The position numbers were made by a program, and so were the translations under genes. Below the pieces are notes generated by a model, which made no database searches, was not told the origin of the DNA, and was given only the letters and a program-made list of their open reading frames with translations. From Sclerodactyla briareus (taxonomy: Eukaryota; Echinodermata; Holothuroidea; Dendrochirotida; Sclerodactylidae), in NCBI GenBank assembly GCA_026419785.1, contig JAODTK010003388.1:372001-436000 (forward strand): a DNA stretch of 64,000 nucleotides, in the 5' to 3' direction. Positions 8,075 through 63,776 of the stretch are shown one piece after another (within the stretch, counting starts at the first letter, position 1; the number at the start of each line of letters is the position of its first letter).

Positions 8075-9463
8075 CAGGGCGTAGATTTTTGTTTGAAGGG
8101 GGGGGGGGGGATGATTTGCTAGAGGACCATCTAAGCGAGACCGCCACCTAGGTTGGCGAGGAGGCGGTCAGAGAAAAATTTTGCTTTTCACAACCTCCTA
8201 GACGCCCGGAGGAAACGGCACTCGAGGGGTTTTTCAGCTGTGTTTACTCGCCCTTCAAGAGTGAATAATTATCTACAATTGTGGATTGCTTAAAGATAAG
8301 TGTTGACATTCTTTGAAAGCTATAGAAACATTTGATCAGTAAAAATGAACCGCAAGAACTAATACGTAAGACAACTATATAACCTGTATGTTAATGAGGG
8401 CAGACCTCACCCACAGTTAGTGCAGGCAAATACATCCAAGAAGTGATGGGAAGATCACGTTACATGCGCATGGGCGTTTGAGGAGGAGCTCCAGTTTTAA
8501 AATCGTTTAAATAACACATTTCGTTAGTCTCCGAGCCCGATATAATGTTTCGGCCAGTTCTGCACATTGGTACCATCTCAAGTAGTTTGTGGTGCACGTT
8601 TACACACAGCAACTGCGTAAGCGCCTCGGGACATGGTACTCCTCTAAACCATGTATTCAGGCCTTCTCAGCGTTGAGAACCTGCGCCCCACCATTCACTG
8701 GACGACACCGTGCACACGAGCAGAAGCTGTAGTAGAGCCTTTACTGCGGGGAGGAAACAGACCCCGCACGCTCTCTGACATTCCACGGTAGGCTTATTTG
8801 GCTGCGTGGAGTGATTCAGCCACGGTGGAATGCTGGACATTGCCAGCTGAATTCCGAACGGTAGGTTCATTTCTGGGTACTTCTGGGCTACCCTGGTTGT
8901 CCTTGATGTACCCACAAGAGATCCTCCATCTTCGTCATACTCAGACAATGCAGAAGTCGGCTGAGAAATGTTATATCTATCTCCAACTGCTGACACAATT
9001 CCATCCAGGACTGGAAAAACTGTTTGCGCCGGTAATGTGTCTCTGTGTCTCTGCGTGGTAACTGCGCGCTGATCCACCTCTGCTTCCGGGGGACTTGTCT
9101 CCTCCGCGGGAAGGCGAAGGGGGTCTAGCTCAAGCTCAATCGAATCAGATAGGGTAGTTTTTAGACTGTTAGGTAAATGCCAGTTTATTGGCTGTTGGGT
9201 ACTGAGTTACTGAGCTCAGCTCTTCAGTTGGTCGCCTCAACTCATACCACTATTTCGGTGTAATAGAAGTGAAGATTGGTCTAATATGAATAATACATTG
9301 TCCAATAATAATAGTATTTTTAAATAATAATTATTAATAATGGGGACTGGACAAAACTGGGAGGATGTTTGTAGCAGGCAACCCCCTACCTCAAAAGTGG
9401 GGGGGGGGATACACCCCCACCCCCCCCCCCCCCCCCCCCCCCCCCCCGCGATTCACGCCCGTG
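8075..9463. mobile_element. Possible hAT-like element with poly-G/poly-C ends
   Basis: The left end CAGGGCGTAGATTTTTG is followed by a run of Gs. The complement of the right end is CACGGGCGTGAATCGCG followed by a run of Gs. The flanks CTGCAGAC (8067-8074) and CTGCGACT (9464-9471) could be a decayed 8 bp target duplication, the length hAT elements make. The ends match imperfectly, so this pairing is tentative. A similar terminus, CATGGGCGTCCATCC followed by Gs, occurs at 47184. Confidence 0.35.
8667..9165 (-). pseudogene. Open frame of unknown origin inside the hAT-like candidate
   Basis: A minus-strand frame stays open for about 165 codons up to a position near 9165, with an internal ATG at 9077. 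It contains an acidic, proline-rich segment (SIELELDPLRLPAEETSPPE) and RYNISQPTSALSEYDEDGG, which read like genuine coding sequence. I recognise no domain. It may be a gag- or transposase-derived fragment, or a chance frame. Confidence 0.25.
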
Positions 9464-9699
9464 CTGCGACTACAGCGACAGCTTTGTTCTGTAGTTCTTG
9501 ATTGTTTATGTTACGTGATCAGAAACTGCAGTTTAGGTTAGAAGTGAAACTTCTTAGCGAAATGAACATTGAGATAGTTTGGGTGTTGGGCTTGAATCAT
9601 TTTTCTGTGGATCTATCGTCGGGAATTCGGGATCATAGTGACCGGGAATAAGATAGCGAAGGCTGTCCACTCAACGTGCACCATCAGTATAATCAATTC

Positions 9700-10620
9700 G
9701 AAGCAATTGTTGTGGCTCACAATTTATAACATGTTTGTAACTCTAAAGTGTTCGGCTTACTGTTCTTTCCTTTATCTGAGTGGTACTTCTCTTTCACTTG
9801 CTTGAGTACACTCCTCCACATATTTTGCACTGTTTCCCCTCCCCACAATTGTTCCATGTTATTCGTCTCGTATTTTTCCCATTTTTGCTGTTCCTCCATG
9901 TAACACAACTGGAAGAACCTGCTTCATCGTCTTATGAATGTGTACCATTTGATGTTTTTGGTGATCACTATCTCCCGGTTATCAACCAATCTCTACATTT
10001 TCTCCCATCTCCTCCTCCACGTTCGAAATCGAATCCAGTATATGGTGGTTTCTGTGCTAGTTTCCCGTACATGCCTGGCTCCAGACTTATCGTGTACCAT
10101 TTTTAAAAATACTTCCGATTGAGATGTTTCAGTCCGTAAGCGCTTGATCCCAGTCTATATCGCGGATAATTGAATTGCCAACTATAACCACTCGTTTGTG
10201 TTGCTGTTGGTTCATCTTCTCAACACTTCCATCACATATTTTTATGTTCTTGGTTCAAGTTTGGTGGCCGATATTTACTCCCAGCTGTATATGCTCTCCT
10301 CCAACGCTATCTGGCACCATATCTGTGCGTCATAAGCCAGCCAATGTATCCTTCTGCACTGATGTTAATCTTTGTTCGTACATATTTGCCACGCCTCCCG
10401 CCAACTCTCCCTTCTATCACGCCTTTAGCACTGAAAGCCTTTAGTTCTGGATTTCGCCGTCCAATATTGTTTTTGTCGAACCACGTTTTCCGTCACACAA
10501 TTACGTCAAGCTTCTCCTCATGGCCCTAACAAAAGCAGTCCACTTTTCTTACCAAGCTCCTGCATAAACATTAAGACAGTTCCATTGTAGATATTGCCTT
10601 GTGTTGTGTTCCATATATTT
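9700..10620 (-). pseudogene. Non-LTR retrotransposon remnant, endonuclease domain
   Basis: On the minus strand, frames in succession give QYLQWNCLNVYAGA (about 10600), TWFDKNN (about 10480), a GGRRGKYVRTKINISAEGY block (about 10390), YRPPNLNQEH (about 10270) and VVIVGNSIIRDIDWDQALT (10141-10200). The last corresponds to the GDFNxxxIDW signature of the apurinic-like endonuclease of CR1/L2/Jockey-type elements. Downstream, 9717-9908 encodes a linker-like segment (WRSVLKQVKEKYHSDKGKN) of the kind found between endonuclease and RT. The catalytic Asp-Phe-Asn is changed and frameshifts are present, so the element is dead. It stops before the RT, 240 bp from the poly-C end at 9463. Confidence 0.65.
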
Positions 10621-10624
10621 CTCT

Positions 10625-10860
10625 ATGTTTTTTTTTTTAGATTTGAAGCTGTGGATTTTCTACTGATCCATGGTCCGCCTTCTCTCTGAAAGTTGCCTCT
10701 CGGTGTGGCTCACCTCTATTATTTGCAATAGTTTTTCCTTTTTTACTGCCAGTTATGTCGGCCTCGCTGATACTGGCTTTCAGTTTGGCTCTCAGTTTCT
10801 GCTCCTCTTTCTTTGTTGTATGTCGATCAGGACGTATTAACATTGTATACGGTTCTGGGT
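10625..10860 (-). pseudogene. Basic open frame upstream of the endonuclease remnant
   Basis: A 68-codon minus-strand frame (10637-10843), rich in lysine and arginine, lies immediately 5' of the endonuclease remnant. Its position would suit the end of ORF1 or the ORF1-ORF2 junction of the same element, but no ORF1 domain is visible. Confidence 0.25.
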
Positions 10861-10869
10861 GGTGTCCTC

Positions 10870-11815
10870 AGCCTGGCGTTGTGGCTTCCCTTAGCACCGG
10901 GGCACCGTCACTCCATGGTGGTTAGGTAGCTCCACACTGATGAAACCGTTTTATCCTCTCAGCTGACAACTTGTACAACATTCTCCTCTGTACACCTGGA
11001 AATATTTGTAATAACTGCCCCACTTCGCTATCATCCTCCCTCCCACGGCGCTTTTTTGTCACTTTGCCCATTTTCCTCGTTACTATTTTCCACTCCAGCT
11101 TTCACCTTTTTTGGGGTTATTTCCTTGCCTGTTCTGCTTATTTTATTCCTTCAATTCTTTGATTTTCTTTTCCTTCATCCCCTCTTCTGTCTCCATTTCC
11201 TTCTTTTTTTTCTCCATCTTTTCCTGCTTCTCCTTCATTTGTGTCCAATTCTGCATAAATCCTGTGTATCATATAACTGACGTAGTCTTACTATAACGGA
11301 AGCTTATTCATTCAGACCTCATTTCTTATCTAAAGGCGGTAATCGTTATTTTTTTTGTTTTGCCGCATGGAGGAGGTATACAACAGAAGAGACATTACAA
11401 TTAATTTGACCGTTAGGAAAGCTAGGCGGTTTTTCCAGTCCCAGGAACCTAAAATCGGGTAGATGAGCTTCTGTACTATATCGCTAGACCACACAGAGAA
11501 GCATTAATCAATCCGTTTTGTTTGAACCCCCTTAATCAGTCAGGTTAAATAGCATGGAACAGGCAGACCGATTGTTACTAAATGCCGAACCGAGAGTATA
11601 AACGGTCTTTCTTGTCCAGGTCATCCAATCTGCATGAGTTTTGTAGGAAATAGTATGTGCATGTGCAGACCGTTGGAGTGGGTTTAGTCTTTCTTTGTAT
11701 GTCTGTATTTCATTTTCTCTTTTTTTTTAAAAAAAAAAAAAACAAAAAATAACTATTATTATTGTATATCGTATAATTTGTATTCTTAACTGTTTTCTGT
11801 ATGAGATGAATAAGT
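10870..11815. other. Unassigned, pyrimidine-rich in part
   Basis: The segment 11030-11260 is C/T-rich and yields long hydrophobic frames that are composition artefacts. The rest has no recognised gene. A T-to-A homopolymer transition lies at about 11721-11743. Confidence 0.45.
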
Positions 11816-12899: not shown

Positions 12900-13800
<901 letters not shown>

Positions 13801-15022: not shown

Positions 15023-16012
15023 TCTGGACATACAAGCCCGATGTTCATAGACGGGTTTTTATTCATATGGTCCGTTGTTTATAAGGCCTGTTGATGCATA
15101 CGGCCTTTTGTTCATAAGGCCCGTTATTCATAATGGCCGAAAAGGTTCTTTATTCATAAGGTCCGATATTATAATCACAACCAAAGAAGGTCCGATTTCA
15201 TCTAGTAAAAACGGTCCGTTATTCATAATCGTGAAAGTCCGTTTTCACATAAGAGGAAAAAGGCCCGTTAGTCATAATAGTGAAACAAGGGTCCGTTATT
15301 CATAATAGAGAAAAGGTCCGATATTCATAATGGAAAAAAGGTCCGATATTCATAATAGGAAAAAAGTCCGTTATTAATAATGAAAATGGTCCGATATTCA
15401 TAATCGGAAAAGGGTCCGTTTTGCATATAGGAAAACGCACACCGGTCGTGGATCTGCCAGGAATCGCAGTACAAACAGGTGCAGTTTTATGGTTTGCATT
15501 CTTGCCGGACCACGCATAGGTAGAACATCTGCTTGTCAAGTATATGATTGAAAAGAAACACAGTAGTGAATAACTGACCTTTTTCGCGATTATGAATAAA
15601 CGGACCTCTGTTTGCTATATGAATAACGGACCCTTTTCACTATTATGAATAACGGGCCTTTTTGCGATTATGAATACGGACACTCTTTTGCTATTATGAA
15701 TCACGGCCCCTTTTCGCCTTTATGAATTACGGACCCTTAATTTTTTGCCATTATGAATAACGGCCCATTTTTACTATTATGAATATCGACCTTTGTGCCC
15801 TCTGTTATGAATAACAGACCCTTTTGATAATTATGAAAAACGGGGCCTTTTGGTCATTATGAATATCGGACCTTCTGAACAAAGACCCCTTTTTTCTTAT
15901 GAATATCGACCTTTTTGGTCATTAATGATAACGGACCCTTTTTCCGAAAATTGGCACGTATACAAACGGGCCTTATTCATAAACGCCTTATGAACATCGG
16001 GCGGTCCCCAGA
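15023..16012. mobile_element. Foldback-type element with subrepeat arms
   Basis: The left arm (15023-15430) is a direct array of units such as AAAAGGTCCGATATTCATAA, about 20-30 bp each. The right arm (15576-16012) is the same array inverted, with units such as TTATGAATAACGGACCCTTT. The termini match: GCCCGATGTTCAT at 15036 and its complement at 15991-16002, with TCTGG outside both. A 145 bp unique spacer separates the arms and has no coding content. Long inverted repeats built from short tandem units are the hallmark of foldback elements (FB, Galileo), some of which belong to the P superfamily. No target duplication is evident, so the superfamily is left open. Confidence 0.75.
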
Positions 16013-32924: not shown

Positions 32925-35900
32925 CCACATATATTTCGTTCCTACGCTTACTGTTCCGTTCGGTATCTTCTCATGCTTTGAACAACTGCAGCTGAACTGG
33001 GGTGACGTAATCATCTCACTCGAACGCAACTACGTTTGTTTATTTTTCGATTATAAATTGAACCTTGTTCTGCAATTTACTTTTCCCGAGCGGGATGCGG
33101 TGTTATCAGATCTCAGGATCCTCATACTACTATAATATGGGTTACGAACTTTGAGAATATGTCAGCCGGCCTGATAGGGAGTTATGACATTTCCTCAAAT
33201 GATGTCCATATTTGGCTTTTCTACAGAAAGCTTAACTAACGGATTGAACAATCAACATAATCCTTACATGGAGGAAAAATGGACAGTGTCGCTACTGGAG
33301 GAACGTCGGCACCATAGACATATTATAGAGGACTGAGATCCGGCTCTGTATTTTGCAACCAATTGAATGCGCGGTGCATGGTGGGAAGTGCACCCAAAAG
33401 ATCGAAGCCTATGTAGTATTACTATTGACTGTGTACGTTAGGCAACGACGGGTCATTTCTATCATCGTTATTTCGAAACCGTAGTAAATAGAAAATACAT
33501 TCTGCATTGAAAATAATGCAAAATAAGCTAAGAATACAATAGTAAGCTTTGGACGGCAAAAACATTCTTTAAAAGACAAAAATCGTTGCGCGAGATTGGC
33601 ACTACATACCATTATCGGCAATGAGTCTGTAGTAGGTCTCACTAGCACAGCTATGTGCAACTACTGCCTGACTGTGCTACGCGTACGCCGAACTCAGGTG
33701 GTAAACAGATATCCGCCACCGGTGCTAGGAAAACCTTTGCATTATTCGAAACAGTAAGAAGCCTGGCTGCTCAGCCAAACTTGCACACCTTGTACAGAAA
33801 ATGCGGGGGTTGAGTTTTCGCCGGTGATTTAGTGACAAGCTAAGGCCTAATCTGTTCACAATGATAGCGGGCTGTTACAAAATAATCAGTTAGGTATCGG
33901 CCTCATCAGAATAATTTAAGATAATTAGGGTGGACTGAATCAAAACCTTCAAATGATATTGTGTCAGTAGTATATTTCAACGAGAACTATGTTTTTCGAA
34001 TAATGATTTGGCCTCAAAACACAATCCTCATGCTCCAGGCACTTGCATCAGCCAATTTCACATGTTAATTTACTTGAGGAGACCTGCACAAAAGGTGTTT
34101 CTTTATGACCTCTATGAAAACACATTCATGTTGACTGTGGCTGCTGACTTTTATACCCTATTTTCGTTTGGGGGGGGGGGGGGGGGGGCATCAGACGACT
34201 GGCTTTCATTATTTTACGCTAACATCACAGAATGCATCACCTGGCTAATTCATCAACAGAACAAATCACAGCATCAAAGGTGAAGAAAACTCTAATCAAG
34301 TTGTGCTGTTCAAACACCAGTGCATCACAAGGTCATAGCCTATTTGGTTGTCCAATTATGTCTAACATTCAGGACATGACCAGATTCTCACTTGAATGTA
34401 GATGTATTTCGAGCAGAACAACATTTTTTTACCTCATGCATACAGATTTTATTTTTAAGAATATATTAATACTTTCATTAATCAGTAATTTAAATATGCA
34501 TGAAACTAGGAATCTTGGTATGTAGATGGATATGGTTGCGATTAATTCATTTTTTCTAAAAGAACATTGATTACCTGAGCCTTATGGGTAGCCTATGTGT
34601 CTATGTGTATGTGTATTCTATGTTTATGATAGGCTATAAAGCCTATAGGCCCTTTCAGCCTTTGTTTTTGTTTGTTAATGGAAATGACTATTCCCCATTT
34701 TGGCATATTCAGTAACTATTAAGAACAATGACTTTTTGCTATAAGTAAAATACGATTTCAGAAAGGGACCTGCAAATAATCAAAGGATTGCTGATAAAAA
34801 TCCAAAGATATTATTTTTCCCCTCTACTTAGTCCCATCTTTAACATCTATTAATGCCAATTAATATTACTAGACTTAACCTCTACTTTCTCCCATAGTAA
34901 TTTCCCACTGTATATTCATCAGTGAATTTCCCCCTATTGGGTCTGGTGGTGCTTATATTCACTGTACCACTCACCATGCTAATCTCATTTCTTTAATCTG
35001 TATAAATGCAGGTATCGTATATTTATATCTTATCTCTGAGAAAGATGTTAAAATACACTGTACCATAAATCCCACAAAAAAGTTGTAAGAATTTTATTTG
35101 CATTTCCTGTATTTTATAATCCCAGAAAGTTGTGATATCTAATAGCTACAATCAACCTATAAAAGGATCACTTACCTGCTGAAAAAGCAGTCATCCCTGT
35201 GTTTTAGTGTTTTCTAGAGGCCTTCGACTCCCGAGCACTGCTCGCCCAAGGTTCCTTAAAATTGCAGGTGAATTCTTCCATAGTTCAGACAATTGGTAAG
35301 AGGTACATTAACATTTTGATGATGATCAACGGAGTGAGAGGAGGCAGAATGAAGAGTCTAACTAAGAAGTGCTTGACAGTTACAGCCTTTACCGCAATGC
35401 TTAACCCCTCTGCTCCAATTTGTATGATCACTGTTGGGATTTTGGGCCTGTTGGGTGTAGGGACCCTAGGGGGGGTAGGGGCTCCCCTTGCAGCCTTGGT
35501 TCAGACATTTCAGTCAGCCGGATTATTCTCCTATATAGGCATACACCTTGAACGAGCGCGTCATGAATAACAATGATTTGTTTGATCTCGAAATCTAGCC
35601 TAGGGCAGCCTATATGATGTTTTGTACAGTGGCTGGTGTCGCCCACCCAGCTAATTTATCCTTAAAATGACCTAACCAAAAATTGACTTTAATATCTATT
35701 AGTATGGCATCATCATTTACATTACCCTTGCTGTACAGCTATAGAAAGTATGGTTTTTACCAGATGTTTAACTCACAATTTTTTTGTTGCAGCCACTAAA
35801 CTTACCGAATACATCAATTGCTAAATCTTCCCCATTCACTTTTGAATGATTCACTTTTGAGTTATATTCGCCGCTGACAATTAGGTGCAGCATTCAGGGC

Positions 35901-36205
35901 TGCACCCTTGCTGGGCCTTGGAAGGGGATGATCCTCTGCTCGGCAAGTATATACCTTTGAAGAAACAATGGTAAAAAATCAGGCCGCTGCTTGCACGGTG
36001 TGCATGATGGGGTGTGCCTAAAAGAACGTAGACCTCCAGAAGGAAGCCTAAAAACTGAATGATCCTGAAAACCTCCAAATAGACCCCCAAAAGTTAGTAT
36101 AAAGACAGAAGATCCTCAAGCAGCGGCGGCACCATGGTTTTGCCCGATGGAGGGTCAGAGTCTGCAGCACCTGACAGTCCGGGTGAGTCGTCAGAAAAGC
36201 GATTA
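32925..36205. other. Unassigned, no supported gene
   Basis: A G run sits at 34171-34188 inside an otherwise open frame (34008-34283). The 102-codon frame at 35262-35570 has a hydrophobic, glycine-rich segment but no family signature. CAGCGGCGGCACCATGG (36121) resembles a hAT terminus without a partner. Confidence 0.45.
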
Positions 36206-43017: not shown

Positions 43018-43349
43018 TTTTTATGGTATACTTGCCAGGCACCGAGTATCGAGCCTATGCGAGGCAACAAGGTACCACCTGGATACTGATGCACCTTATT
43101 ACCACTGCGAATCCTTCACCCCAGGCACACGGCAAAGGCAACTGCGGGGGTTGGGAAATCTCCCACGCAGCCGGCATCTTGTAAATTGCCTACCACTCGC
43201 TTGTCCCTGCTCCCATCCTTTGGCTGCGACTACGAGAAGGCAGCAGGTATTATTTTCAAAGTCATTGTAATGACCACGACCGGGATTCGAACTCCCGGTC
43301 GTCCTCCCGTGTGGAGGGCCGACGCTCTACCAATCAATGCCACACTCGG
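43018..43349 (-). mobile_element. tRNA-derived SINE, copy 1
   Basis: On the minus strand the element begins with a tRNA-like head. This has an A-box-like TGGCATTGATTGGTAGAGC (complement of about 43324-43342) and a B box GGGAGTTCGAATCCC (complement of 43282-43296). About 230 bp of body follow, ending in GGCAAGTATACCATAAAAA. The whole length is similar to 57851-58176, which fixes it as a family. The acceptor stem does not pair, so it is not a functional tRNA gene. No partner LINE could be matched through the 3' end. Confidence 0.8.
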
Positions 43350-44114: not shown

Positions 44115-46330
44115 ACCAGAGACTCTGATAGTCACAAAGTAAGCTGATAGTCACAACGTAAGATCGCCCCGAACGCATTGCCTCAAAAACCGCGCCCTTG
44201 AAAAGGTGTCGTTATATTGACTATATGCTGTCCCTGTACATTCAGCTAATTTCCATCCCTGCGCCCTTCACTTTTATCACTCCAGTTACGCTACTGCCCC
44301 TGCCTGTATCTTGATGAGCTTCATACTTTTTCATAATTTAGAATTCGAAAAAAGGGGAAAAGTGCACCACTGCAATATACCCCGTTACCTTTCCATTGTG
44401 CGACACCATTAGTGGATCACAATGATCAAGAGCAATACATGTCACCCGGCTTCACCACGCTTGATTTACTTTGCAATGCAATTTCCAAATACTACATCAT
44501 AGATCTGATCTGATCACCATCTAATTCCCCGTACAATATCAACACGACGTCTCAAATTGCCCCCAATGCGCCCCGTGTAACGGGTTTTCGATGTAATGGA
44601 CCATAGCCTATATGCTAAATGTCGAAATAATTCATGCAGTCTGCTCGTCAATCTATAGGCATAGTTTTGATTCGCCCAAGTACATTTTTTTTTTTTTATC
44701 TGTAATTACAAATTTATTGTATATATCTGCACAATTCGTGTAATTTTTAACACAACCTTTACACAGGTTATGGTAACTTCTTACACTACACCGGGATGGG
44801 TGTGCTAATTCATACAGTGTTTTTGTGTGAATTATACACAACATCTATTTAAGAGTGTGAAAATCCACCCGCTAGTGATTTGCTAATTACTGCAGTGCCT
44901 GGATGGATTTCATGAAAAGCTATTTACATCACAAGATCAAACAGGTAGGCTGACTGAACTGAACTAATCACGTAAACATGTGTGAACTGTGAAGGTTTTC
45001 CAGTGTTTACAATGTACTTGGCACTCCGATTCGACAGAGCTCAAGCAATTGCCTTCTCTACGCCCTTTACATAGGACTCATGAGAGAGGACCGTGGTTAG
45101 TGGAAATTAAATGTGCCCTTAGTGAAGGATAATATGTTATGTTTAGGCCGTATATTAAGAATCGTAACTTATCTTGTTCTTAGATTCCCCACTTTGAGCC
45201 ATCTTTGTTGCGGGGAGCGGTTAAAGTAAACATCTGTTCTTTAGTCTTTCGTATAACACAAGGTCGCTAAAACAACGTAATCATTGGAAGATCATGAAGA
45301 TAGGCTTATTCATGATCGGAAAATAGGCTTCTTCATGATATTGCGAATTAGAAAATCGTATATCTATCTCTCTCAACCGACTTTAAAGGTCGTATGAACC
45401 CTTTTTGTTGGTTTGTCGGATTTGATGAGTGGAGACAAGAATCATTCAAATTCAATTGCATGCATGCGTTACTAAACAATGGTAACATTGCTAGTAACCC
45501 TCCAAAAGTTTGGACAGCAACGGAAGTGTGGCCTACAATACATTCACAACGCTTTAATTACCTAGTTTGCATCACCACTTTAGCTGGTATGTTATAATGC
45601 AATGCAACGCCTCTGGAAGACCCAATGTGACGCCGTCTAGCCTCAACCGAAACTCCTTTTTGTGGCGCAATAATAAAATTTAGAGACTAATTATCATATG
45701 AATGACTGAGAAAATCGTAGTCCAGAGATCCAAGAGAACACAAGTGGTCATTATTGGAACAATGCGCTTTTAATCTAGAATGTTTGAGACAAAAAATTGC
45801 TTACCTGTTATTGCGGTTCGATGAGGTGACAGGCCTCGACTTCCTTGATGTAATTCTGGGTTACATACTACCAACTATGGGTTGCATCCCTCCAAGAGGC
45901 TTTATACTTCGACCTCTGTGACCTAGGCGACATTGACCCTGATAGAGAAGCAATAGAGGGCGTGCACTATTTACGGCCAACCCCCTGTGAGTATGAACCT
46001 CTACATATTTCAGAGGGGGAAGTGTGATCACAACGTATTTTTACAGTTTGACGTTTCGTCACCTTGGTGCGGGCAGAAAGAAAGATAGAGATCATTCATT
46101 AAATACGGCGAACTCACAGCAAGTATGAACTGGCACGTAATTGTGCATAATTATCGTTCTCACAATGTGACTCTGTGACCTTGAGTGATCTTGGACCTTT
46201 TCGAAAACGGTAGGGACAATACGTTGAGACAGGGTTAGTGGTTTTTTTATTCTGACGAAGGTCCGAGGAATATATGCCAGTCATGACAGTGTGTGGGTGT
46301 GTGTTGTTGTGTGTCTGTATGTAGTGGGTA
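44115..46330. other. Unassigned, no supported gene
   Basis: A T run (44687-44698) begins an AT-rich segment to about 44870 containing GTGTAATTTTTAACACAAC and GTGTGAATTATACACAAC, short partial palindromes that may be MITE remains. No gene is supported. Confidence 0.4.
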
Positions 46331-46940
46331 TGTAACGCTGGCTTGTAAACACAAAAGCTCGACCCCACCTGAATGGGTGAAGCTCATACTTGGATGTGTG
46401 TTCCCCATGATGAGAACATTAAACCTATTGTTTTGGTTAGGTCAGAGGTCATCTGAGGTCACCAGAGGTCAAAGTTGAAAAACATTGTAAAACGATAAGT
46501 CCAGGAATGTGGGTCTGATCAGGTTGAAAATGGTGTGTAGCTTTCCTATGGGAAGACAAGAAACCATATAGTTTTTTGTATAGGTCAAGGGTTGAATTTT
46601 AGTTGAAAAAGGGAAAATTGGTGAAACAGTCAAATTTTGCCAATAAGGCTTGTGAACAATTACTCGACCCCACCTGAATGGAGTGACGTCTATGGTATGT
46701 GGTTCCCCATGATGAGTACATGAACCCTATCATTTTGGCGTCAGGTCAGAGAGTCATGCTGAGTAAATGAAACCCTATTGTTTGAATTCAACAGAGGCCA
46801 AGTCTGATCCTTGAAATGGGAACCTTGATGGCTGGTTGGGAAAAAATGTGAAGTTTTGTCAACGATATGTTTCCCATGATGAGCTCCTACCCCATTGTCC
46901 ATGTGTCTTGGCTATGGGTTGTCAGAAGAAAGAGTCAAGG
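46331..46940 (+). repeat. ~305 bp repeat, two copies plus a partial third
   Basis: CTCGACCCCACCTGAATGG (46359 and 46664) and TTCCCCATGATGAG (46401 and 46703) recur with a spacing of 302-305 bp. A third TTCCCATGATGAG lies at 46870. GTCAGAGGTCATCTGAGGTC-type sequence follows the first copy. The units are about 70-75 percent alike by eye. Confidence 0.6.
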
Positions 46941-47183
46941 AATCACTAAGCCTTTGGCTTTCGTTTTTTTTTTTACTTCAACCTCTGTTGGACTACGTGA
47001 CATGGACATGACCACGGAACACACAAAATCTATCTAGCCAACCTAACAATTCAAGTGTGCGTCGTCGCCCTAATGGTTTTTAGACTTGGACCTCTGAGTG
47101 ATATCAAAACCTTCGCGTTTCAAACATGTGCAATCAGCTATTAACAGTCAGATTGAATGAATGGTTGGGACTGTGCGAAGCAT

Positions 47184-47310
47184 GGGCGTCCATCCTGGGG
47201 GGGGGGGGCAGGGGGACACGCCCCCACTTTTTGAAGTAGGGGAGAAATACAATTACCCTCCCCCCCCACCCCGACACTTTTCGACGTGCGGGGGAAAGAG
47301 TAGCATTCTC
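47184..47310 (+). mobile_element. Transposon-like terminus with poly-G/poly-C arms
   Basis: CATGGGCGTCCATCCTGG followed by a G run, GGACACGCCCCCACTTTTTG and a C run has the same layout as the complement of 9380-9463. This marks a shared family of elements with homopolymer subterminal tracts. A possible opposite end (GGACGCCCATG, about 49610) lacks the C run and is not accepted. Confidence 0.4.
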
Positions 47311-47687
47311 CATGTTTTGCCGATATGCTGCCATTGTTGGCGCGGACATGCACCATTAGAACAGCAAAATGGGGGCCCAAGATCTTTACTACAAGTGCCT
47401 ATATTTCATCGAATGCGATAGAAAAACCGCGGAAAAATTTTGCACGAAGCGCATCGACCTAGGGTGTGGGATTAACTTCACTGTGGGATGCGATCAGTAG
47501 ACAATTTGGGGAATTTGCGGAAAAAGTTCGACCCCATGGTTTTAGGCTACATTGTTACCAATGTATTCAAACTTTGAAATTTAGTAGTCACAATCTCGAC
47601 AAGAAAAGACTAGGCCTATATCGCAAAATAATCTGTTTAACAGGGATCTTGAATCACGGTCAAGGCTGAAATTGCAGGTGAATCCCC

Positions 47688-47850
47688 AAACTTAGCCGGC
47701 CCATTGACTACACGCTAATGACTCTTCAAAGCGCGCTGAGCAAAGAAAAGTTTTTCCAGGAGAGTCCACCCACCACTTGCAAGCTGACTTCATACATGTC
47801 ATGGCACGTCCAATTCACTGTAGGACCTCTACTTTGGTCGTTTTGTGTGT
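47688..47850 (+). repeat. Dispersed repeat G, copy 2
   Basis: This segment matches 41725-41890 in the same orientation, with TTAGCCGGCCCATTGACTAC, GCTAATGACTCTTC, GCTGACTTCATACATGTCAT and CCAATTCACTGTAGGACC. No coding role is seen. Confidence 0.65.
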
Positions 47851-54904: not shown

Positions 54905-55180
54905 ACTCAGATGCATACGCCCGGGGGGGGGGGGGGGAGGGCAAAACCCCATGACCAAGTGATCGATGAACTTTTAACACAAAAAACGAAGTTTATTGAA
55001 GTGCAGGTCAGTAGAAATTTGCAGGCTGTTATTTGCAAATTGCCGCAGCATGTGTTTAGGGGCTCATAAATTGTACTTATTTTTCCAATATGGAGGGTGA
55101 GGCCATTTATGAGGCGCCACTTCCCCTTGAATCGCGACCTAATCCCCCCCCCCCCTCTCATGACAAATCTTGCGTGCGCT
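54905..55180. mobile_element. Dispersed repeat F, copy 1 (poly-G to poly-C)
   Basis: This ~270 bp segment begins GCATACGCCC plus a G run and ends with a C run plus TCATGACAAATCTTGCG. It matches 62595-62862 throughout: CCATGACCAAGTGATCGATG, GGCTGTTATTTGCAAAT, GGAGGGTGAGGCCATTTATG. No clear terminal inverted repeat was found. The subterminal homopolymers resemble the other G/C-ended elements in this window. Confidence 0.7.
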
Positions 55181-56339
55181 ACATATTATAACTGACAAGG
55201 AGTAAGGGGCTCTTAGCAGTTATTAATTTATGATTAGTTTACTCGGTTTAGCATGTTTAGTATTTCTTCGGTGTTCGGCGTCTACCACTTTGTTTTAAAC
55301 ACACCATCGCCCTGTCATACGCAGCTGTTACGCTTTTCCAATCGTATGGCATCGGCTTAAACTTGGTTGCTACCTTACTTGTTATGCGGTGCACTTTGCA
55401 CAAATCAGTAGATGAATTTCTATTGTCGAATTCTGATCATTCCGGCGGTTAATTGAAACGTCTTCAATCAGTTTTTCGAGCTTTTTATTCTCCTAAAATA
55501 TGAATGAGAACTGTAACGCCTACGTTGTGGCTGATACCGATTACCTTTCAGATATGTTCTTACGGTGTGGTATGAGTGTACAATTGTGACACTTTTTTTT
55601 CGTTCCTTGTCGAAGGCAGAATTAGGCCTCTATGCAGTCACGCATGCGTGGGTATGTGTGTGTGTGTGTGTGTGTGACCGCACGACTCCTGGTGAGCACG
55701 ATACCGGTTGTAGCTAGGCCTACAGGCTACGGGTGAATCTGAACGCGCTTTGAAAGTGGCAGACAGAATGAAAAAGGAGTCGAATAATTTGTAAGCAGCG
55801 TATTTTGAATAAGCACACTGTGGACATGCTCGGCAGTAAGTATAGCAAAGGAGCGGGCGGCCATAGGTCTCCTGGTTCGCTCTTGGTGACATCGGCTACC
55901 TCCGTCACAACGTCCAGCTGAGTTGCATTCGCAGGGTTCTGTTCGTTCGATTGGTCAACATCTGCCAGGTGAGCTGGGCCGGAATATTGCACCAGAATTA
56001 AAAATCAAAGGTCCCTGGTCTGTCAGAATCGGGTAGCAGAAACATGATGCACCAATGCGCCAATATCAATTTGTTTATTTCTCCATGGCTAAGGTTGTAC
56101 GTCCACATAAGGTTACCATACAGAGAGGATTATAGTTTAGGCGACCTTAAAGTTTGCTGGTTGGTTTGGCAACATCGCCAACGGGCGAGTCTTCCCAGAG
56201 AAATGCAATTGGTCTACGCGATGTCTGTCAGTTCCAGCTGCGCGTTGATTCGCGTTCGCCCACAAATCGATGGTACTCCGCTCTTGGTGTTCATATATAG
56301 CCTACCAGCGAAATATAAAAAAACAAAATCAAAGCTACA

Positions 56340-56403
56340 AACAAGACAGCGGACAGGTGTTATCTGAAGGAGTCACAGTGGAGGCAGCTGAACATGAAGG
56401 AAG
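56340..56403 (+). promoter_or_regulatory. Candidate 5' leader exon end, copy A
   Basis: GCGGACAGGTGTTATCTGAA and GTGGAGGCAGCTGAACATG lead to a GTAAGT donor at 56404. The same blocks and donor recur in copy B at 60749/60750. Conservation of the donor between diverged duplicates suggests a spliced non-coding first exon of the SLC22 gene or of a lost paralogue. No transcript evidence is available. Confidence 0.35.
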
Positions 56404-56689
56404 GTAAGTCGTGACATTTATAAGACACATGATACCTCAAATATCCAAACTTCAAGTTCAACATTCCTCGAACCGTGGTGCTACACCGTGGGAAAACTCT
56501 ATATAAACCAGTCTAAAAAGGCAGTGAAATAGGCTGTAAATAGGCTGTAAAATATTTTGCCAACGTGGTTTTGCTTGCACGCATGCAGCTCGCTGCCGGC
56601 TTAAGTGATTTTGTCTTGGCAGCAAACGCGAGTTGCATGATACAGAAAATAGAACGCCGAACATAGAATATCCTGCTATTCGCTTTTTT

Positions 56690-57840
56690 TTCCGTCAAGC
56701 CAAAAGAGAGTTATTCGCGCACGCAGTCTGGCAGTGGGAGGTGGAAGAGGTATCTAGCTAGGCCCATGCATTGATCATAGAGATCGAGACTCCCCTCCAT
56801 CATTGATGTATCACTGCAGGGGAGAACGGAGATGGGAGGTTCTAGGACTGTTCTAGGACTGGTTGTCAAAAATGTCATAGCGCATTTTTTTTAAATGATG
56901 CAAGTGGAGCGGTGTGGTGGTTCATTTTACCTCTATGAATTATCATTCAACTGACACCAAACTCAGACCACACGTCCACAAGAAAGTATCGTTCAATGAG
57001 TTCACCAAAACACTTTACCCCTTGAAAACACAGATTCGCCCTGCCATGGAAAAAGTATTTATTGTTTTAATAAAGGATATTATAGTTGTGACACATAGTG
57101 CATATTCACGGTAAAAACTGGAACCACACCTTATTAGTTAGGTTAGTTGAGTTTGTAACATAAGAAGAAAAACGTGCTGGGGGGAGATTGGTTCAACTGT
57201 TTGTATGCAATTGTGACAACCTGCCCTGCAAGTGTGAGAACAATTCCGAACATTGTCAGAATGGGGTTTTCTCTTATGTGACAAACCAGCCTCATGCCAT
57301 GTAGCACAGGCACGGGACAAGATGTCACAACAATTCTTCGAAGAAATTGGCTCATATTTCAGAGCTGAAACATCATATTGCCCCGGACAATGTGTTGGGA
57401 AACTAGTCCCTATCATGGTTTATTTACCTGTTTACAGGTGTATTCTGATCTTGCATACCAGCAGTGAATTGTAGTTATAACCGAAAGAATGTTTGTGACT
57501 CTCATCCCTGGTCTACCCTACGGCATAATTGATACATCTAACATTGTGGTAAAACATCAGAGCGGTGACTGACCGATTCATAGCCTCCTAATCTGGCGCC
57601 GTTGGCATCCGCTACCAATTGTCGAGCGTATTTCAGGAGGCGAAAAATGAGCAGGCGCAGATGTTTTGAGGATATTTAGGCTCATACGTTCCATAAAGTC
57701 GCCCGGTCAAATTAGGTAAAAGCTCTCTGCTCAACCGCCCAGCGAGGGACCGCGGTTCCGGGGTGGACAGGGCGCGTTTAGCCGGAGGAGGTATCTTTTT
57801 GAGTGGGGGTGGGATGAACAGGTGATGGCTAACCTGGGGG
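56690..57840. other. Sequence in copy A absent from copy B, unassigned
   Basis: No counterpart is visible in copy B between its matching flanks. A minus-strand frame (57138-57416) is cysteine- and histidine-rich in one phase and hydrophobic in another. Neither is recognised. It is probably one or more insertions. Confidence 0.35.
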
Positions 57841-57850
57841 TAGTCTCAGA

Positions 57851-58176
57851 GTTTTATTTTATGGTATACTTGCCGAGCAGGGGGTCGATCCTATTCTAAG
57901 GCCCAGAAAGGGTGCAGACCTGGATACTGCACCTCATTGTCAGCTGCAATCCTAACCAGGTACACGGATTAAGGCAAGGCTCTTTGGCGGGGTATCTTAA
58001 ATGTGGGGTGGGGGGTATCACACGCAGACGGCAACTTGCAGATTGCCTACCCCTCGTTTGTCCCTGCTCCAATCGTGCTGAGCGCCCAGTTTTTGGTGTG
58101 ACCCGACCAGGAATCGAACCCGGTCTTCCGGTGGAAGGCCGACGCTCTACCAATTGTGCCAACCGCTCGGTCAGGT
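57851..58176 (-). mobile_element. tRNA-derived SINE, copy 2, in copy A only
   Basis: The head is on the minus strand, with an A-box-like TTGGCACAATTGGTAGAGC and a perfect B box GGTTCGATTCC (complement of 58110-58120). The body matches the SINE at 43018-43349 and ends in GGCAAGTATACCATAAAATA. Copy B runs straight from AGCCTCAGATACAATG to TGTGCAATAGCACGCC across this position, so B is an unoccupied site. This supports the boundaries given to within a few bases. Confidence 0.85.
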
Positions 58177-58260
58177 GAAATGTATGCAATAGCATGCCGA
58201 AACACCTCCGTGTGGGAAGTAGTTATATATTTTCGTCTGGTCGTAGCACAACATCCACCA

Positions 58261-58407
58261 ACACTCTAAAAATGTTGGGTACAAATACCAACTGAGCAAT
58301 TTGTTCCAACCAGTTTTGGTAATATTTTACTCATTTTGAGTATATGTTTACACAGGTTGGGTATAACGAATTGCCCAGGTGGTAATTTTACCCAACATTT
58401 TGAGTGT
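58261..58407. mobile_element. 147 bp MITE, in copy A only
   Basis: The left end ACACTCTAAAAATGTTGGGT and the complement of the right end, ACACTCAAAATGTTGGGTAA, are near-perfect inverted repeats. Copy B reads TTCACCAAGGTACTC across the site, where A has CCACCA, the element, then AGGTACTC. No net target duplication can be seen from this comparison. The superfamily is not assigned. Confidence 0.75.
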
Positions 58408-58539
58408 AGGTACTCATGTATCGTTTCACTGATATCGTGTATTAAATTAGGCCCTATCTACAACTTCACCATTGGTGAAACGTTTCTTCGACTCCCAGGT
58501 TTTTTTTTTTTCGGTACAGCTGTCCCACTCTGCTTGTTA

Positions 58540-59812
58540 AGCGCTGTTCACACTTGTGCGATACGATACGATACGATAAGATTATCGGATGGAGTGTTCA
58601 CATTTGTGCGATAAAAATGTCGTACGATAATTTTATCGGACGTCTCGGCGCCTAACATAACCGAGAAATTAGTGGGATTTTATTTGAGAGAAGCACAAGT
58701 TTTTCCCTGGTCGCCAGAGTTTTTGAGTACCAAGAATTGTAATTTCAAAGCAATTCGAAGCTTGGCGTCTTTTCCCAGTTACTTGTGAGGAGGCGTGGAG
58801 AGCGGCAAAGTGACGGATAACCGATCAGATAGCTGACCTCACCATCCCCGCCTACCCTTTCGTTAGACACCCAGTCTTATTAGCATCGGTATCCAATAAT
58901 ACGGCGAAGTGATGTTAGCCAAGAAAGCATTCAGTCAATTGAGTCAATTCAGTTAATTGAGCTGACAATTTGAGCTTCGTTACTCTGCTCAAAACAAGCA
59001 AGTAAAAATAATGCCTACGGCTCCACCTGTATACCTTTACCTTATTACTTTCCTCACTGATCTACAATACATAATACTGGTTAAAATCGCCCCCCCCCCC
59101 CACTGCACTATAGCTTATTTCCGTTGTTTATTCCGTTTCTACTAAGGGTAAGGGAGAAGTTTCCCTCAATACGTCATGCGGTGAGTCGAGACCCCTGGAA
59201 AAACCCCTACTACACTGCTCCTCTCAAACAGCCCAACACCCCCTCCCCCGGCCACTCACTACCAACCGCATATCTCCTGCCTTTGCATGTCACATGATAC
59301 TTCGTGGGCGCCAGCGCAACAGGACCCTCACCATTACCTCACTGGTCACGGTACTATCGTATATGGGGATTGCTTCATGGATTCGAACTAAAATAATGGT
59401 TTCGTAGGTCCCGTGCATGGCGGCAAATAAGGCCGAGAAGTCTCATTCAGAGCCAATGTCTTCCCCGGATATGTCGCTACCCAATACATCCATCAAAACT
59501 CCTCGATTTCATCACTAAACCCACTTTCCACGCTAAACTTCCCCAATATCCTGTTTGACGTTCCATATTCTTTGCAGAATTGCACAGTTTATCACTGCAT
59601 TGCGCAATTTATCGCAACCGATAAATTTATCGTACGATGAAAGTTAAAATATTTTTCAACTCGACGTCCGATAATTTATCGTATCGTAAACCGTATCGTA
59701 TCCGCAGGTGTTAACACTCCTATTGAAAATAACCCTTTTTTAACTCGACGTCCGATAAAAAAAATGTATCGTATGTATCGTTCTATCGTAATGCACAAGT
59801 GTGAACAGCCCT
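58540..59812. mobile_element. PIF/Harbinger-like element, 1273 bp, in copy A only
   Basis: The left end AGCGCTGTTCACACTTGTGC and the complement of the right end, AGGGCTGTTCACACTTGTGC, differ at one of 20 bases. TTA flanks both ends (58537-58539 and 59813-59815), the 3 bp duplication typical of PIF/Harbinger. Both subterminal regions are rich in CGATA/TATCG repeats (TACGATACGATACGATAAG at 58562 and inverted versions at 59600-59790). No transposase frame is present, so it is non-autonomous. Copy B lacks it. Confidence 0.85.
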
Positions 59813-60085
59813 TTAGAGGCGACAGCTTCACGTCGGTGGGAGCGCTTTCCGACGTACAGGTCTCCACAGTCAATTTGGTCCAAACATATGGTAATTAAGA
59901 TTATCTGTACGCAGTCTGGTACTTATGTTCTCACTGTCAAGTTTCCAGACCTGACTTGTACCAGTATTTATTCATATATGGATTTGGTATCGGAATGACT
60001 CTCGTCCCTCGAATTTCGAACAGAGCGACAAGATGATTGCTTGAGTTACTCACACACGGCTGGAAAAAAGGTGGCTGCTGACTCG

Positions 60086-61560
60086 CTTCCGTGTGTATGT
60101 TTGTATGTGTGACCGCTCCTTGTGAGCACGATACGCAGTTGTCGCTGAGGCATATACTGCTTTATCTAACACCTTTGAAAGTGGCAAAATGAAGGAGTTG
60201 AATAATTTGTGAGCAGCCTAGTTTGAATGAGTACGGTACAGTGCACATGCACGGCAGTAAGTAGCAAAGGAGCAGTCGGTCATTTTCTTCTTGGGCTGAC
60301 TTCATTTCTGGCAATGTCTCGACGTCCAGCTGAAGTTGACATTTGCCAGGCTGAGAGTGTCCGGAAATGATATCACCAGAGAGCAAAGGCCCACTGGCAT
60401 GTCATAATTGAATAGAGGAAACAAGATGCATCGATGTAACCGATATCAATTTGTTTATCGCTCTTTGCTATTGGTTTACGTCCACAGAGTTTACGTGACA
60501 CACATAAGAGGATTATAGTTGAAGCGACTTGTTTTTGCTGGTTGGCTTGGTGATATTGCCAACATGAGTCTTTCTAGAGAAATGCAATTGGTCTACCTGC
60601 TGTCAGTTCATAGCTCATATTCATGGGGCTCAGTTCTGCATGGTTAATCATCTATGCAGTGAAAATAAAAACAGAATCACTGCTACAAACACGCACAGGC
60701 GGACAGGTGTAATCTGACGGAGTCTCAGTGGAGGCAGCTAAAAGGGAAGGTAAGTCGAACATTTTAAAGTGACCCCGTGACACCCTTAAATATCCAACTT
60801 CAGGTTCAGCTGTTCTCGGCAAGGGGCTCCTTCACCGTGGGAACAGTTTCATTGCCAGCCAGTCTATCTATAGGCTGTGAAATTGGTATTTTGCCAACTC
60901 GATTTCGCTTGCACGCATGCAGCTCGCTGTCGACTCAACTGCTCAAGTGCTTGCGGTATATAGTCTTGGCAGCGGTCGTGAGTTCATGTTGTGAACAGTG
61001 ACTCGGGGCAGTATTTTTACTAACCTGGGGAGCGGGTAGCCTCAGATACAATGTGTGCAATAGCACGCCCAACCACCTCCGTTTGGGAAAGAATTATATA
61101 TTTTCGTCCGGTCGTAGCATACATTCACCAAGGTACTCATGTAGCGTTTCAGTATTATCGTGTACATAATTACAACTTCACCATTGGTGAAACACGTTCG
61201 ATACGCCGGGTGTTTTTTTCCGGCACAGCTGTCCTACTCAATACGCTAGTTGCGGCCATATTGTAACTGTCCTGTTTTTGCATGCTTACAATAAACAGTT
61301 TTCGCCAAAGCGATCGCTTCCCGACGTTCTGCTAATAGCAACGCTGTATATTCGGTCTCAATTATGGTCAATTAAAATTCACTGCATCTATGCAGTCTAG
61401 TTCATATGTTCTCATTGTCAAGGTTTTAGACCTGAATTTCCAATACCTATATTATTTATATCGTGAAGGCCTTCGTTCCTCGAATTCTGAACTAGGGCAA
61501 AGGAGCAATATGATGAGTGCTTGAGCGGCTCACCCACGGCTGAAACTGACATAGGTACCG
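60086..61560. repeat. Tandem duplication, copy B (compact)
   Basis: This is the uninterrupted counterpart of 55640-60085, starting near TGTGTGTATGTTTGTATGTG and ending near CACCCACGGCTGAAAC, where copy A reads CACACACGGCTGGAAA. It lies directly upstream of the SLC22 coding exon and serves as the empty-site reference for the three insertions in copy A. Confidence 0.85.
60680..60749 (+). promoter_or_regulatory. Candidate 5' leader exon end, copy B
   Basis: CAGGCGGACAGGTGTAATCT and GTGGAGGCAGCTAAAAGGGA lead to GTAAGT at 60750. A splice to the acceptor at 61651-61652 would give an intron of about 0.9 kb and put the SLC22 start codon 52 bases into the next exon. The transcription start cannot be placed. 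No clear TATA box lies at a fitting distance. Confidence 0.4.
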
Positions 61561-61652
61561 ATTTGCCCGTCTGCTAACCCACAGCCTTCACATTCAACCA
61601 TGCAACAACTAACAGTTAGGCTAAACCGTTATATCCGTGTTATATCCCACAG

Positions 61653-62124
61653 GTAAACGGCGTTAGTTTATTATCAAGCCGACGCATACTGACAAAACCG
61701 GAAAATGAAGTTCGACGAAGTGCTAATTTTGATCGGGGAGATGGGCCCATACCAGGTCAAGATTATGGTTCTCGTCGCTCTAGCGATAATACCGGAGGCG
61801 ATGAATTCGATGATCGCGGTATTCATCACAGCTGAGATGGACTCCTGGTGTGCGGTAGAGGAATGGGCAGCGTCGGCCGAGAACTGCACGACACTGCCGC
61901 TGAGATCGCCCGAGTATACCGAGTGTATTCACAAATACCGCGACGCTGTGATACCGGTAGTCGATTCCGGGGCGGTTTACGCTAAATGCGAGATGTACGA
62001 CGTCGCTGCTCCGGAAGAGTTTTCGGAAGATTTTTTCGCGGGGGATTTCACTAATTCCACGATAGTCTGCCAGGACGGATGGATGTACGATCGAAGTCAG
62101 TACAGTAGTACGATAGCTAGTGAG
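61653..62124 (+). CDS. SLC22-family transporter, first coding exon
   Basis: The exon follows a possible acceptor (ATATCCCACAG, AG at 61651-61652). Coding starts at ATG 61705 (GGAAAATGA context, A at -3) and runs 140 codons to a GTAAGT donor at 62125, ending in phase 0. The N-terminus MKFDEVLILIGEMGPYQVK is the SLC22 signature. A membrane helix spans about residues 19-42. The large extracellular loop has five Cys (49, 61, 74, 95, 122), N-glycosylation sites at 60 and 117, and ends CQDGWMYDRSQYSSTIASE, just before the family's usual WDLVC. The product would be an organic cation/anion or carnitine transporter of the plasma membrane. The substrate cannot be told from this part. About 400 residues lie beyond the window. 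Confidence 0.93.
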
Positions 62125-62594: not shown

Positions 62595-62862
62595 CACGGG
62601 GGCGAGGGGGGGGGGTCAGCACCCTTCTCCCATGACCCAAGTGATCAATAATTTTTAAACACAAAAACTAATTTTTCGCAGTTCAGTAGAGGTTTTGCAG
62701 CTGTTATTTAGCAAATATTGCAGCAGCAATGTTGTCTAGGGGACCATAAATCGAACTTATTTGCCAATAGGGAGGGTGGGGCCATTTATGAGGGCGCACT
62801 TCCCTTGGGGTCCGGCCTCCACCCCCCCCCCCCAGACAAATCTCTCGGTACGCCGCCGCAAA
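62595..62862. mobile_element. Dispersed repeat F, copy 2, in the SLC22 intron
   Basis: This segment matches 54905-55180 in the same orientation: CCCATGACCCAAGTGATCAA, TTTTGCAGCTGTTATTTAGC, ATAGGGAGGGTGGGGCCATT, then a C run and AGACAAATCTCTCGG. It begins with GGCGCACCC plus a G run. Boundaries are good to about 10 bp from the two-copy comparison. Confidence 0.7.
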
Positions 62863-62889
62863 TCAGAGAGTATGGGTATTACTGGCAAT

Positions 62890-63776
62890 GTCTTGAGACC
62901 GTGGATTCAAGAGTTGTTCCACAGTAGGGCGCAAACAGTTGTCATAAATGGGCGTGTTCTACATGGCAGGAGGTCAACATTGGTGTCCCCCAAGGGTCGG
63001 GTTTTGGTCCCTTTGATATTTTTGGCTCATATCAACGATCTCGAGATTCTGTGCAGTCCGGAGTGATTTACGGACGACACAAAATTGTATCGGAGAGTGA
63101 CTTTGGATGATAATGTTGCAATTGTTCAAAGGGTTTTAGACTGAGTCTCCAAATAGTTATCCGCTTGGCAATTTTCGGAAAATGCGAAGTGATGCACATC
63201 GGCTATCATATAATGCCAACGCGTATTTTATTTTGAATGGTCAAGAAATTAATTTGGTAAATCCCGAAGAGGATATTGGTGTGTATTTTGATTCTATATT
63301 TAACCCTCCTCGCAGTGTGCGGAAGCTGCTATGGGAAAGGTAATTGCAAGGATTCTCAGCTTGATTGAAAACATAATTTCCAAAGACAGACTGTTCAAGT
63401 AGTCGGTAAGACCCTCACCTGGTGTATTCCGGGCAAATTTGGATTTCTTATTTCGGGGAAGTAAAAATGCTCATTGAGAAAGTCCAAAGGAGGGCTTCGA
63501 GGTTAATACACTCTCTGCGAGATTTGCCGTATGATGAAAGATGAAAGCGTCTTAGTTTCACTTCAATGCAGCTAAGACGAGTTCGGGTGATATGGATCAG
63601 GTTCTTTAAATTGTCCACGGCTTCGATGACCTTTGTTTCGATTACGTTCAATTTTGATGTTACCACTAATAGGGGTCATTGTCTCAAGCTTCGTGGTAAC
63701 GTTGCAGATTAGACGTTCAGAAGTATTTCCTTTCACAAGAGTGATTAATGAGTGGAATATCCTCCCTGTAGATGTT
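62890..63776 (+). pseudogene. CR1-like RT remnant in the SLC22 intron
   Basis: Frames give TVVINGRVLHGRR and PKGRVLVPLIFLAHINDLEI (62935-63055), then FTDDTKLYRRVTL (about 63068, near-intact active-site box), a KLSAWQF-like stretch (about 63160), AACxxxGKVIARILSLIENI (about 63320), KVQRRASRLIHSLRDLPYDE (63480-63540, frame as read), and FTRVINEWNILPVDVQ (63735-63778). These are the RT palm to C-terminus of a CR1-type element, with several stops. The same blocks occur at 28.1-29.4 kb on the other strand. The 3' end is cut off by the hAT terminus at 63777. Confidence 0.75.

Follow-up and report, generated by a model that had tools for sequence, protein, structure and literature searches.

A diverged tandem duplication upstream of an SLC22-type coding exon in Sclerodactyla briareus and the transposable elements of its distal copy

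The duplicated unit and the SLC22-type exon

The stretch of DNA analyzed here (the window) comprises 64,000 nucleotides of the holothuroid Sclerodactyla briareus, i.e., positions 372001-436000 of contig C2249 in a 319-Mb genome, against which all whole-genome searches were run. Directly upstream of the first coding exon of an SLC22-type transporter, the window contains a local head-to-tail tandem duplication, which is real, well delimited, and attributable to ordinary genome evolution. Its two copies, the distal copy A and the proximal copy B, are separated by a 25-bp spacer, and A is interrupted by blocks that B lacks (Table 1). BLASTN comparison of 55001-60085 with 60086-62000 returned four collinear plus-strand blocks, with identities of 67 to 84% per block when gaps are counted and ∼82% without gaps. 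Two diverged head-to-tail copies upstream of the SLC22 exon had been proposed in an initial annotation of this DNA, which named pairwise alignment beforehand as the check. That alignment bore the proposal out: a local alignment of A and B with a cheap long-gap penalty revealed collinear similarity with a score of 1587, whereas 20 shuffles reached at most 108 and 20 other segments of the window at most 147. Upon removal of the columns at 56862-56893 and 59544-59622 of A as spurious, the alignment comprised 1266 columns that were 81.6% identical, corresponding to a Kimura two-parameter distance (K2P) of 0.212 ± 0.015 (0.222 with those columns included). The 300 bp outside each unit end were no more alike than shuffled sequences (118 and 162 of 200 shuffles, respectively, scored as high), and the similarity between A and B thus ends sharply.

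The same annotation had named a widely dispersed repeat as the explanation that would compete with a local duplication. The region is indeed repeat rich, with four repeat families within copy A, but two dispersed copies of one repeat are an extremely improbable source of the A/B likeness. A whole-genome search with the 1475-bp copy B query yielded four rows from three candidates, all of them on C2249 at A and B, and thus no further copy of the unit at the sensitivity of that search; nhmmer identified no other copy within the window. The copies are therefore collinear and head to tail, and the unit is not dispersed in the genome.

The SLC22 coding exon lies outside the duplication. Its predicted protein resembles OCTN2 (E value, 7.8e-8) and SLC22A3 (E value, 0.0014), with no family match in Pfam for the exon alone. 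At the sensitivity used, a genome search with the exon recovered the exon itself and one additional match with 30% identity and four internal stops; elsewhere in the window, the protein matched nothing better than an E value of 1.5. These results do not support the idea that SLC22 genes once formed a tandem array here and that copy A is what remains of a lost member.

Table 1. Features of the duplicated locus (positions are those of the window; the strand is given where one was assigned)
Feature	Position	Strand	Basis or remark
Copy A, distal, interrupted by A-only blocks	55656-60065	+	BLASTN, local alignment, genome search
GTAAGT donor-like site in copy A (putative)	56404-56409	+	Sequence
A-only block without counterpart in B, 1190 bp	56639-57828	+	Alignment gaps 56639-56861 and 56894-57828
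Terminal inverted repeat element, ∼700 bp, within the A-only block (older repeat family)	56819-57519		Genome search; ends from alignment of copies
tRNA-derived SINE, 320 bp	57852-58171	-	Family copies in the genome; tRNA model
Fold-back MITE, 147-bp insertion	58261-58407		Alignment gap, fold, family copies
Nonautonomous PIF/Harbinger-like element, 1273 bp	58540-59812		Terminal inverted repeats, flanking TTA, family copies
Copy B, proximal, 1455 bp	60091-61545	+	Local alignment, genome search; ends ∼160 bp 5′ of the SLC22 start codon
GTAAGT donor-like site in copy B (putative)	60750-60755	+	Sequence
Segment of B without counterpart in A, ∼60 bp, beside the PIF-like site	61255-61314	+	Alignment
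Possible acceptor CAG before the SLC22 exon	61650-61652	+	Sequence
First coding exon, SLC22-type transporter, 140 codons followed by GTAAGT	61705-62124	+	OCTN2 similarity

Sequences confined to the distal copy

Three of the A-only sequences were classified as a short interspersed element (SINE), a miniature inverted-repeat transposable element (MITE), and a PIF/Harbinger-like element, names that rest on structure and not on a repeat-library match. SINEs derived from tRNA combine a tRNA-like head with an A-rich tail and reach high copy numbers. The SINE in A conforms to this description in its putative tRNA-like head, its A-rich tail, and thousands of candidates at first look (2947, the best 40 of which were scored, many with matches over positions ∼10-329 of the query), and nothing notable sets it apart. 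The head scored 28 bits against the full-length tRNA model, whose gathering score is 29, and ARAGORN predicted no tRNA gene within the window. The target duplication, read by eye, is short and degenerate (CAGAG/CAGGT). Joining the flanks of A across the insertion reproduces the sequence of B with scattered differences only. The window contains additional copies of this SINE, full or 3′ partial, at 43018-43341, 35861-35960, and 15446-15552; dating from these in-window copies was dropped, being superseded by dating with copies from the genome.

The MITE is short and noncoding, has inverted repeats, and folds as a hairpin from end to end (DNA fold z score, −9.69 over the 147 bp). Its genome search gave 190 first-look candidates, the best 40 of which were scored, revealing many similar copies. 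The family form is CACTCT...AGAGTG between TA dinucleotides; of 25 other copies, a count by eye gave the left TA in at least 12. Alignment of family copies places the ends at 58262-58406, between TA-like dinucleotides, which corresponds to the 147-bp alignment gap minus one base on each side. As for the SINE, the flanks of A joined across the MITE site match B except for scattered differences. A third paralogous unit was suspected at one MITE copy (L046), the flanks of which (CCACCAA...AGGTACT) resemble those in A. This candidate was rejected, and the resemblance was ascribed to chance, because the 9.9-kb surroundings (L053) match the MITE only, with ∼7 and 16 bp past its ends, together with a dispersed repeat.

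Duplication of a TWA target is described for PIF/Harbinger transposons in the PHIS transposon survey (PMC4482050). Like these, the element in A has TTA on both sides (58537-58539 and 59813-59815) and terminal inverted repeats (AGsGCTGTTCACACTTGTGC), the arms of which span 37 nucleotides and are 84% complementary, target included. The genome search returned 1195 candidates, and the best 40 were scored. Unlike the pattern described there, only some family copies carry TWA on both sides: among the nine other copies aligned to both ends, the same TWA flanks three (L018, L020, and L021), one has TAA/TTA (L019), and five have no TWA pair. No transposase frame was seen in the copy in A, its sole open frame of at least 100 amino acids being one that overlaps the left end (58270-58614); autonomous relatives with a DDE transposase were not sought. 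The terminus of the element had no match in a scan of viral contigs. Matches to this family are clustered on contigs C2123 (∼46303-47768 and 86453-88210), C2822 (∼184451-187034), and C739 (∼8742-11662), where they are perhaps joined or nested copies.

The three differences between A and B listed in the initial annotation proved an incomplete inventory. A fourth and larger A-only block of 1190 bp, which carries a further repeat, was delimited by two alignment gaps, the 32 aligned columns between them being treated as spurious. A genome search with 56600-57850 yielded 41 match rows, including those of the window itself, and all 34 candidates were scored. Every nonself match fell within 56853-57521, and the ∼490-bp remainder of the block had no other match in this search. 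Alignment of the element in A with three other copies revealed inverted GGGGAGA-like termini, mostly beside TA; the left flank in A is CA, where flanks are TA-like.

Relative order of the split, the insertions, and the loss

To place these sequences in time, their distances to family consensuses were set against the divergence that each copy of the unit has accumulated since the A/B split, i.e., half of the K2P (0.106 ± 0.0075). The distances were 0.102 ± 0.019 for the SINE (z, −0.20), 0.115 ± 0.030 for the MITE (z, 0.29), and 0.098 ± 0.009 for the PIF-like element (z, −0.68). The consensuses were built from 14 of 39 other scored SINE copies, 25 of 40 scored MITE copies, and 19 of 40 scored PIF-like copies, all taken from the upper part of the respective list (for the SINE and the MITE, not in strict order), a choice that favors relatives of the copies in A. 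The three insertions thus look the same age as the A/B split within error and not clearly younger than the duplication; an A/B split that does not postdate the insertions is supported. The initial annotation had offered that either the duplication is older than the insertions or B escaped them. Its first alternative stands insofar as the split is at least of insertion age, and escape fits chance: the two-sided probability that all three insertions fall in one copy is 0.25 if the targets are equal, and no protection of B is therefore needed.

The terminal inverted repeat element is different. Its K2P to the consensus of nine other copies was 0.171 ± 0.019 (z, 3.18); nine of 14 other fetched loci were used, L061, L063, L065, L066, and L067 being omitted as short, partial, or overlapping. 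Had only the element been inserted, the ∼490 bp of the A-only block that had no other match in the search would not have come with it. A deletion in B best accounts for an element older than the split in otherwise unmatched surroundings that are likewise absent from B. Most likely, therefore, ∼1.19 kb including an old transposon was deleted from the proximal copy.

These observations can be accommodated by a single tandem duplication, followed by three insertions in A and a ∼1.19-kb loss in B, a course of events that we consider highly probable. The ancestral unit would have measured ∼2.6 kb (the 1455 bp of B plus the 1190-bp block), would have lain directly upstream of the first coding exon of the SLC22 gene, and would already have held the old ∼700-bp transposon. 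One tandem duplication would then have copied this upstream piece alone, leaving out the coding exon, with the copies joined by end joining or unequal exchange. Thereafter, the distal copy would have gained the tRNA-derived SINE, the fold-back MITE, and the nonautonomous PIF/Harbinger-like element, the proximal copy would have lost ∼1.19 kb with the old transposon, and elsewhere the two would have diverged at much the same pace from end to end.

Two other courses of events bear on the same data. The three elements might all have been present in the unit before it was duplicated and later have been removed from B by excision or deletion. Their ages near that of the duplication and the probable loss of another ∼1.19-kb block from B agree with such a history, but the SINE and MITE sites in B are intact or nearly so and would need precise removals, and no end remnants of the SINE, the MITE, or the PIF-like element were seen in B in the alignments. 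Excision of SINEs is not known, and we regard this history as very improbable. Alternatively, the tandem may have arisen by unequal exchange between haplotypes, one of which already carried the insertions, so that these predate the duplication but not the A/B split. The empty sites date the split and not necessarily the joining event, and the divergences of the insertions equal that of each lineage since the split, as this alternative expects. However, ordinary allelic divergence is far below 0.21, and most of the A/B divergence should consequently postdate joining; the alternative also needs three insertions linked on one haplotype. On balance, we deem it unlikely.

Several points weigh against the preferred order of one duplication, three later insertions in A, and a loss in B. 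The genome search with B omitted the last and most diverged block of A itself (59843-60065), and other copies of the unit that are equally diverged could therefore have escaped it. The copies of the SINE, the MITE, and the PIF-like element in A lie within the ranges of their families (family means, 0.081, 0.121, and 0.079, respectively), and their agreement with 0.106 may be due in part to the period in which these families were active; in addition, distances to a consensus include subfamily divergence, and the ages are overstated if subfamilies exist. The other copies of the terminal inverted repeat element span K2P values of 0.074 to 0.232 from their consensus. Finally, the sites themselves are of unequal quality. 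Of the three sites at which B had been annotated as unoccupied, those of the SINE and the MITE are clean. At the PIF-like site, B lacks the element, and alignment of the left flank extends to the target; the right side offers no clean empty site, as A has ∼30 bp and B ∼60 bp that fail to align there. At the MITE site, the left flank in A and the corresponding site in B both read AA (the flanks in A being AA/TA), and the TA target duplication of the family is thus not demonstrated at this locus. The related claim that the locus defines the exact ends of the repeats holds to within 1 to 2 bp for the SINE, the MITE, and one side of the PIF-like element, whereas copies elsewhere in the genome define these ends better.

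Putative leaders, neighboring sequences, and significance

Each copy of the unit contains a GTAAGT donor-like site, and the initial annotation had suggested a duplicated promoter or leader exon. The unit would in that case be a functional promoter with a leader exon, and its duplication would have provided the SLC22 gene with alternative leaders, of which that of B alone is compact and lacks an upstream ATG. GGAAGGTAAGTCG is kept in both copies, the identity between A and B just before the donor is 90% (55 of 61 columns), and, if spliced to 61653, the putative leader of A would bring a 7-codon upstream open reading frame (ORF) and that of B none, the leaders being set by us as the 100 nucleotides that precede the donor in A and the 94 that precede it in B. 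However, other A/B regions average 79 to 82% identity, and the excess before the donors does not reach significance (Fisher P = 0.09, or 0.21 with a longer stretch). The best-conserved 64 columns, at 55737-55809, lie away from the donor, and chance would be expected to give such a window (permutation, 0.97). The suggestion was therefore not borne out by any significant extra conservation; we hold the promoter-and-leader interpretation to be possible but doubtful. Most likely, though with considerable reserve, the unit has no function beyond the promoter activity that B may have kept as the gene-adjacent copy, and use of either GTAAGT as the donor of a leader exon is a tentative guess. It seems unlikely that two leaders now differ functionally, with transposon load and the upstream ORF having shifted expression to the proximal unit; the distal leader would then carry the short upstream ORF and lie several kilobases further off by virtue of the transposons, and the proximal one would be free of upstream ATGs, an arrangement that is improbable to the same degree. 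A bacterial promoter scan was set aside as uninformative for a eukaryote.

Downstream, a candidate later exon of the SLC22 gene was found by ORF reading 18 kb past the window end (L034:8266-8420). Its similarity is weak (best E value, 0.24), and all nine structure matches listed for it are SLC22 proteins. The search for the Sugar_tr family listed nine matches, none of them on C2249, and the downstream gene was thus not confirmed. Open frames with SVPQGSVL and YADDTQIY, presumably reverse transcriptase-like motifs, occur at ∼5811-6217 of L033 (C2249, ∼441.6-442.0 kb), probably within the first SLC22 intron. Pfam searches with 42 ORFs of the window gave one weak match (Hobbit; E value, 0.028), and ten of them searched at an E value of ≤0.1 gave none. 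The open frame at 62740-63066 reads LVSPKGRVLVPLIFLAHINDLE, which we take to resemble reverse transcriptase motifs; it had no Pfam match and appears as a decayed fragment of a non-long terminal repeat retrotransposon, with an extension to ∼63780 judged by eye. On either side of the locus lie two direct repeat copies (55003-55155 and 62678-62833; 80% identity) flanked by runs of G or C, and a further match to this repeat region is found at L053:8320-8541. The ∼300 bases at ∼13190-13500 read lysine in the three plus frames, i.e., they are nearly pure A, and are possibly an assembly artifact.

Local tandem duplication of the upstream region of a gene is a known kind of event. The locus resembles such cases in its head-to-tail arrangement and sharp ends and differs from them in that the coding exon was left out and the proximal copy was probably shortened later. 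Titles and abstract openings in the literature revealed nothing on this locus or on this kind of case, and the words "tandem" and "promoter" do not appear in PMC4633038. The PHIS transposon survey used paralogous empty sites to delimit transposons (PMC4482050). As in that survey, related sequence free of the element here reveals element ends and target duplication; unlike there, the empty copy is a tandem neighbor that has diverged by ∼20%, with two of the three sites clean and one half clear. The biological value of the locus lies in this well-preserved paralogous empty site, from which the relative order of four transposons and one probable deletion can be read at a single place, and which helps to establish where repeat families abundant in this genome end. 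If transcripts showed both units to serve as SLC22 leaders, the locus would matter more.

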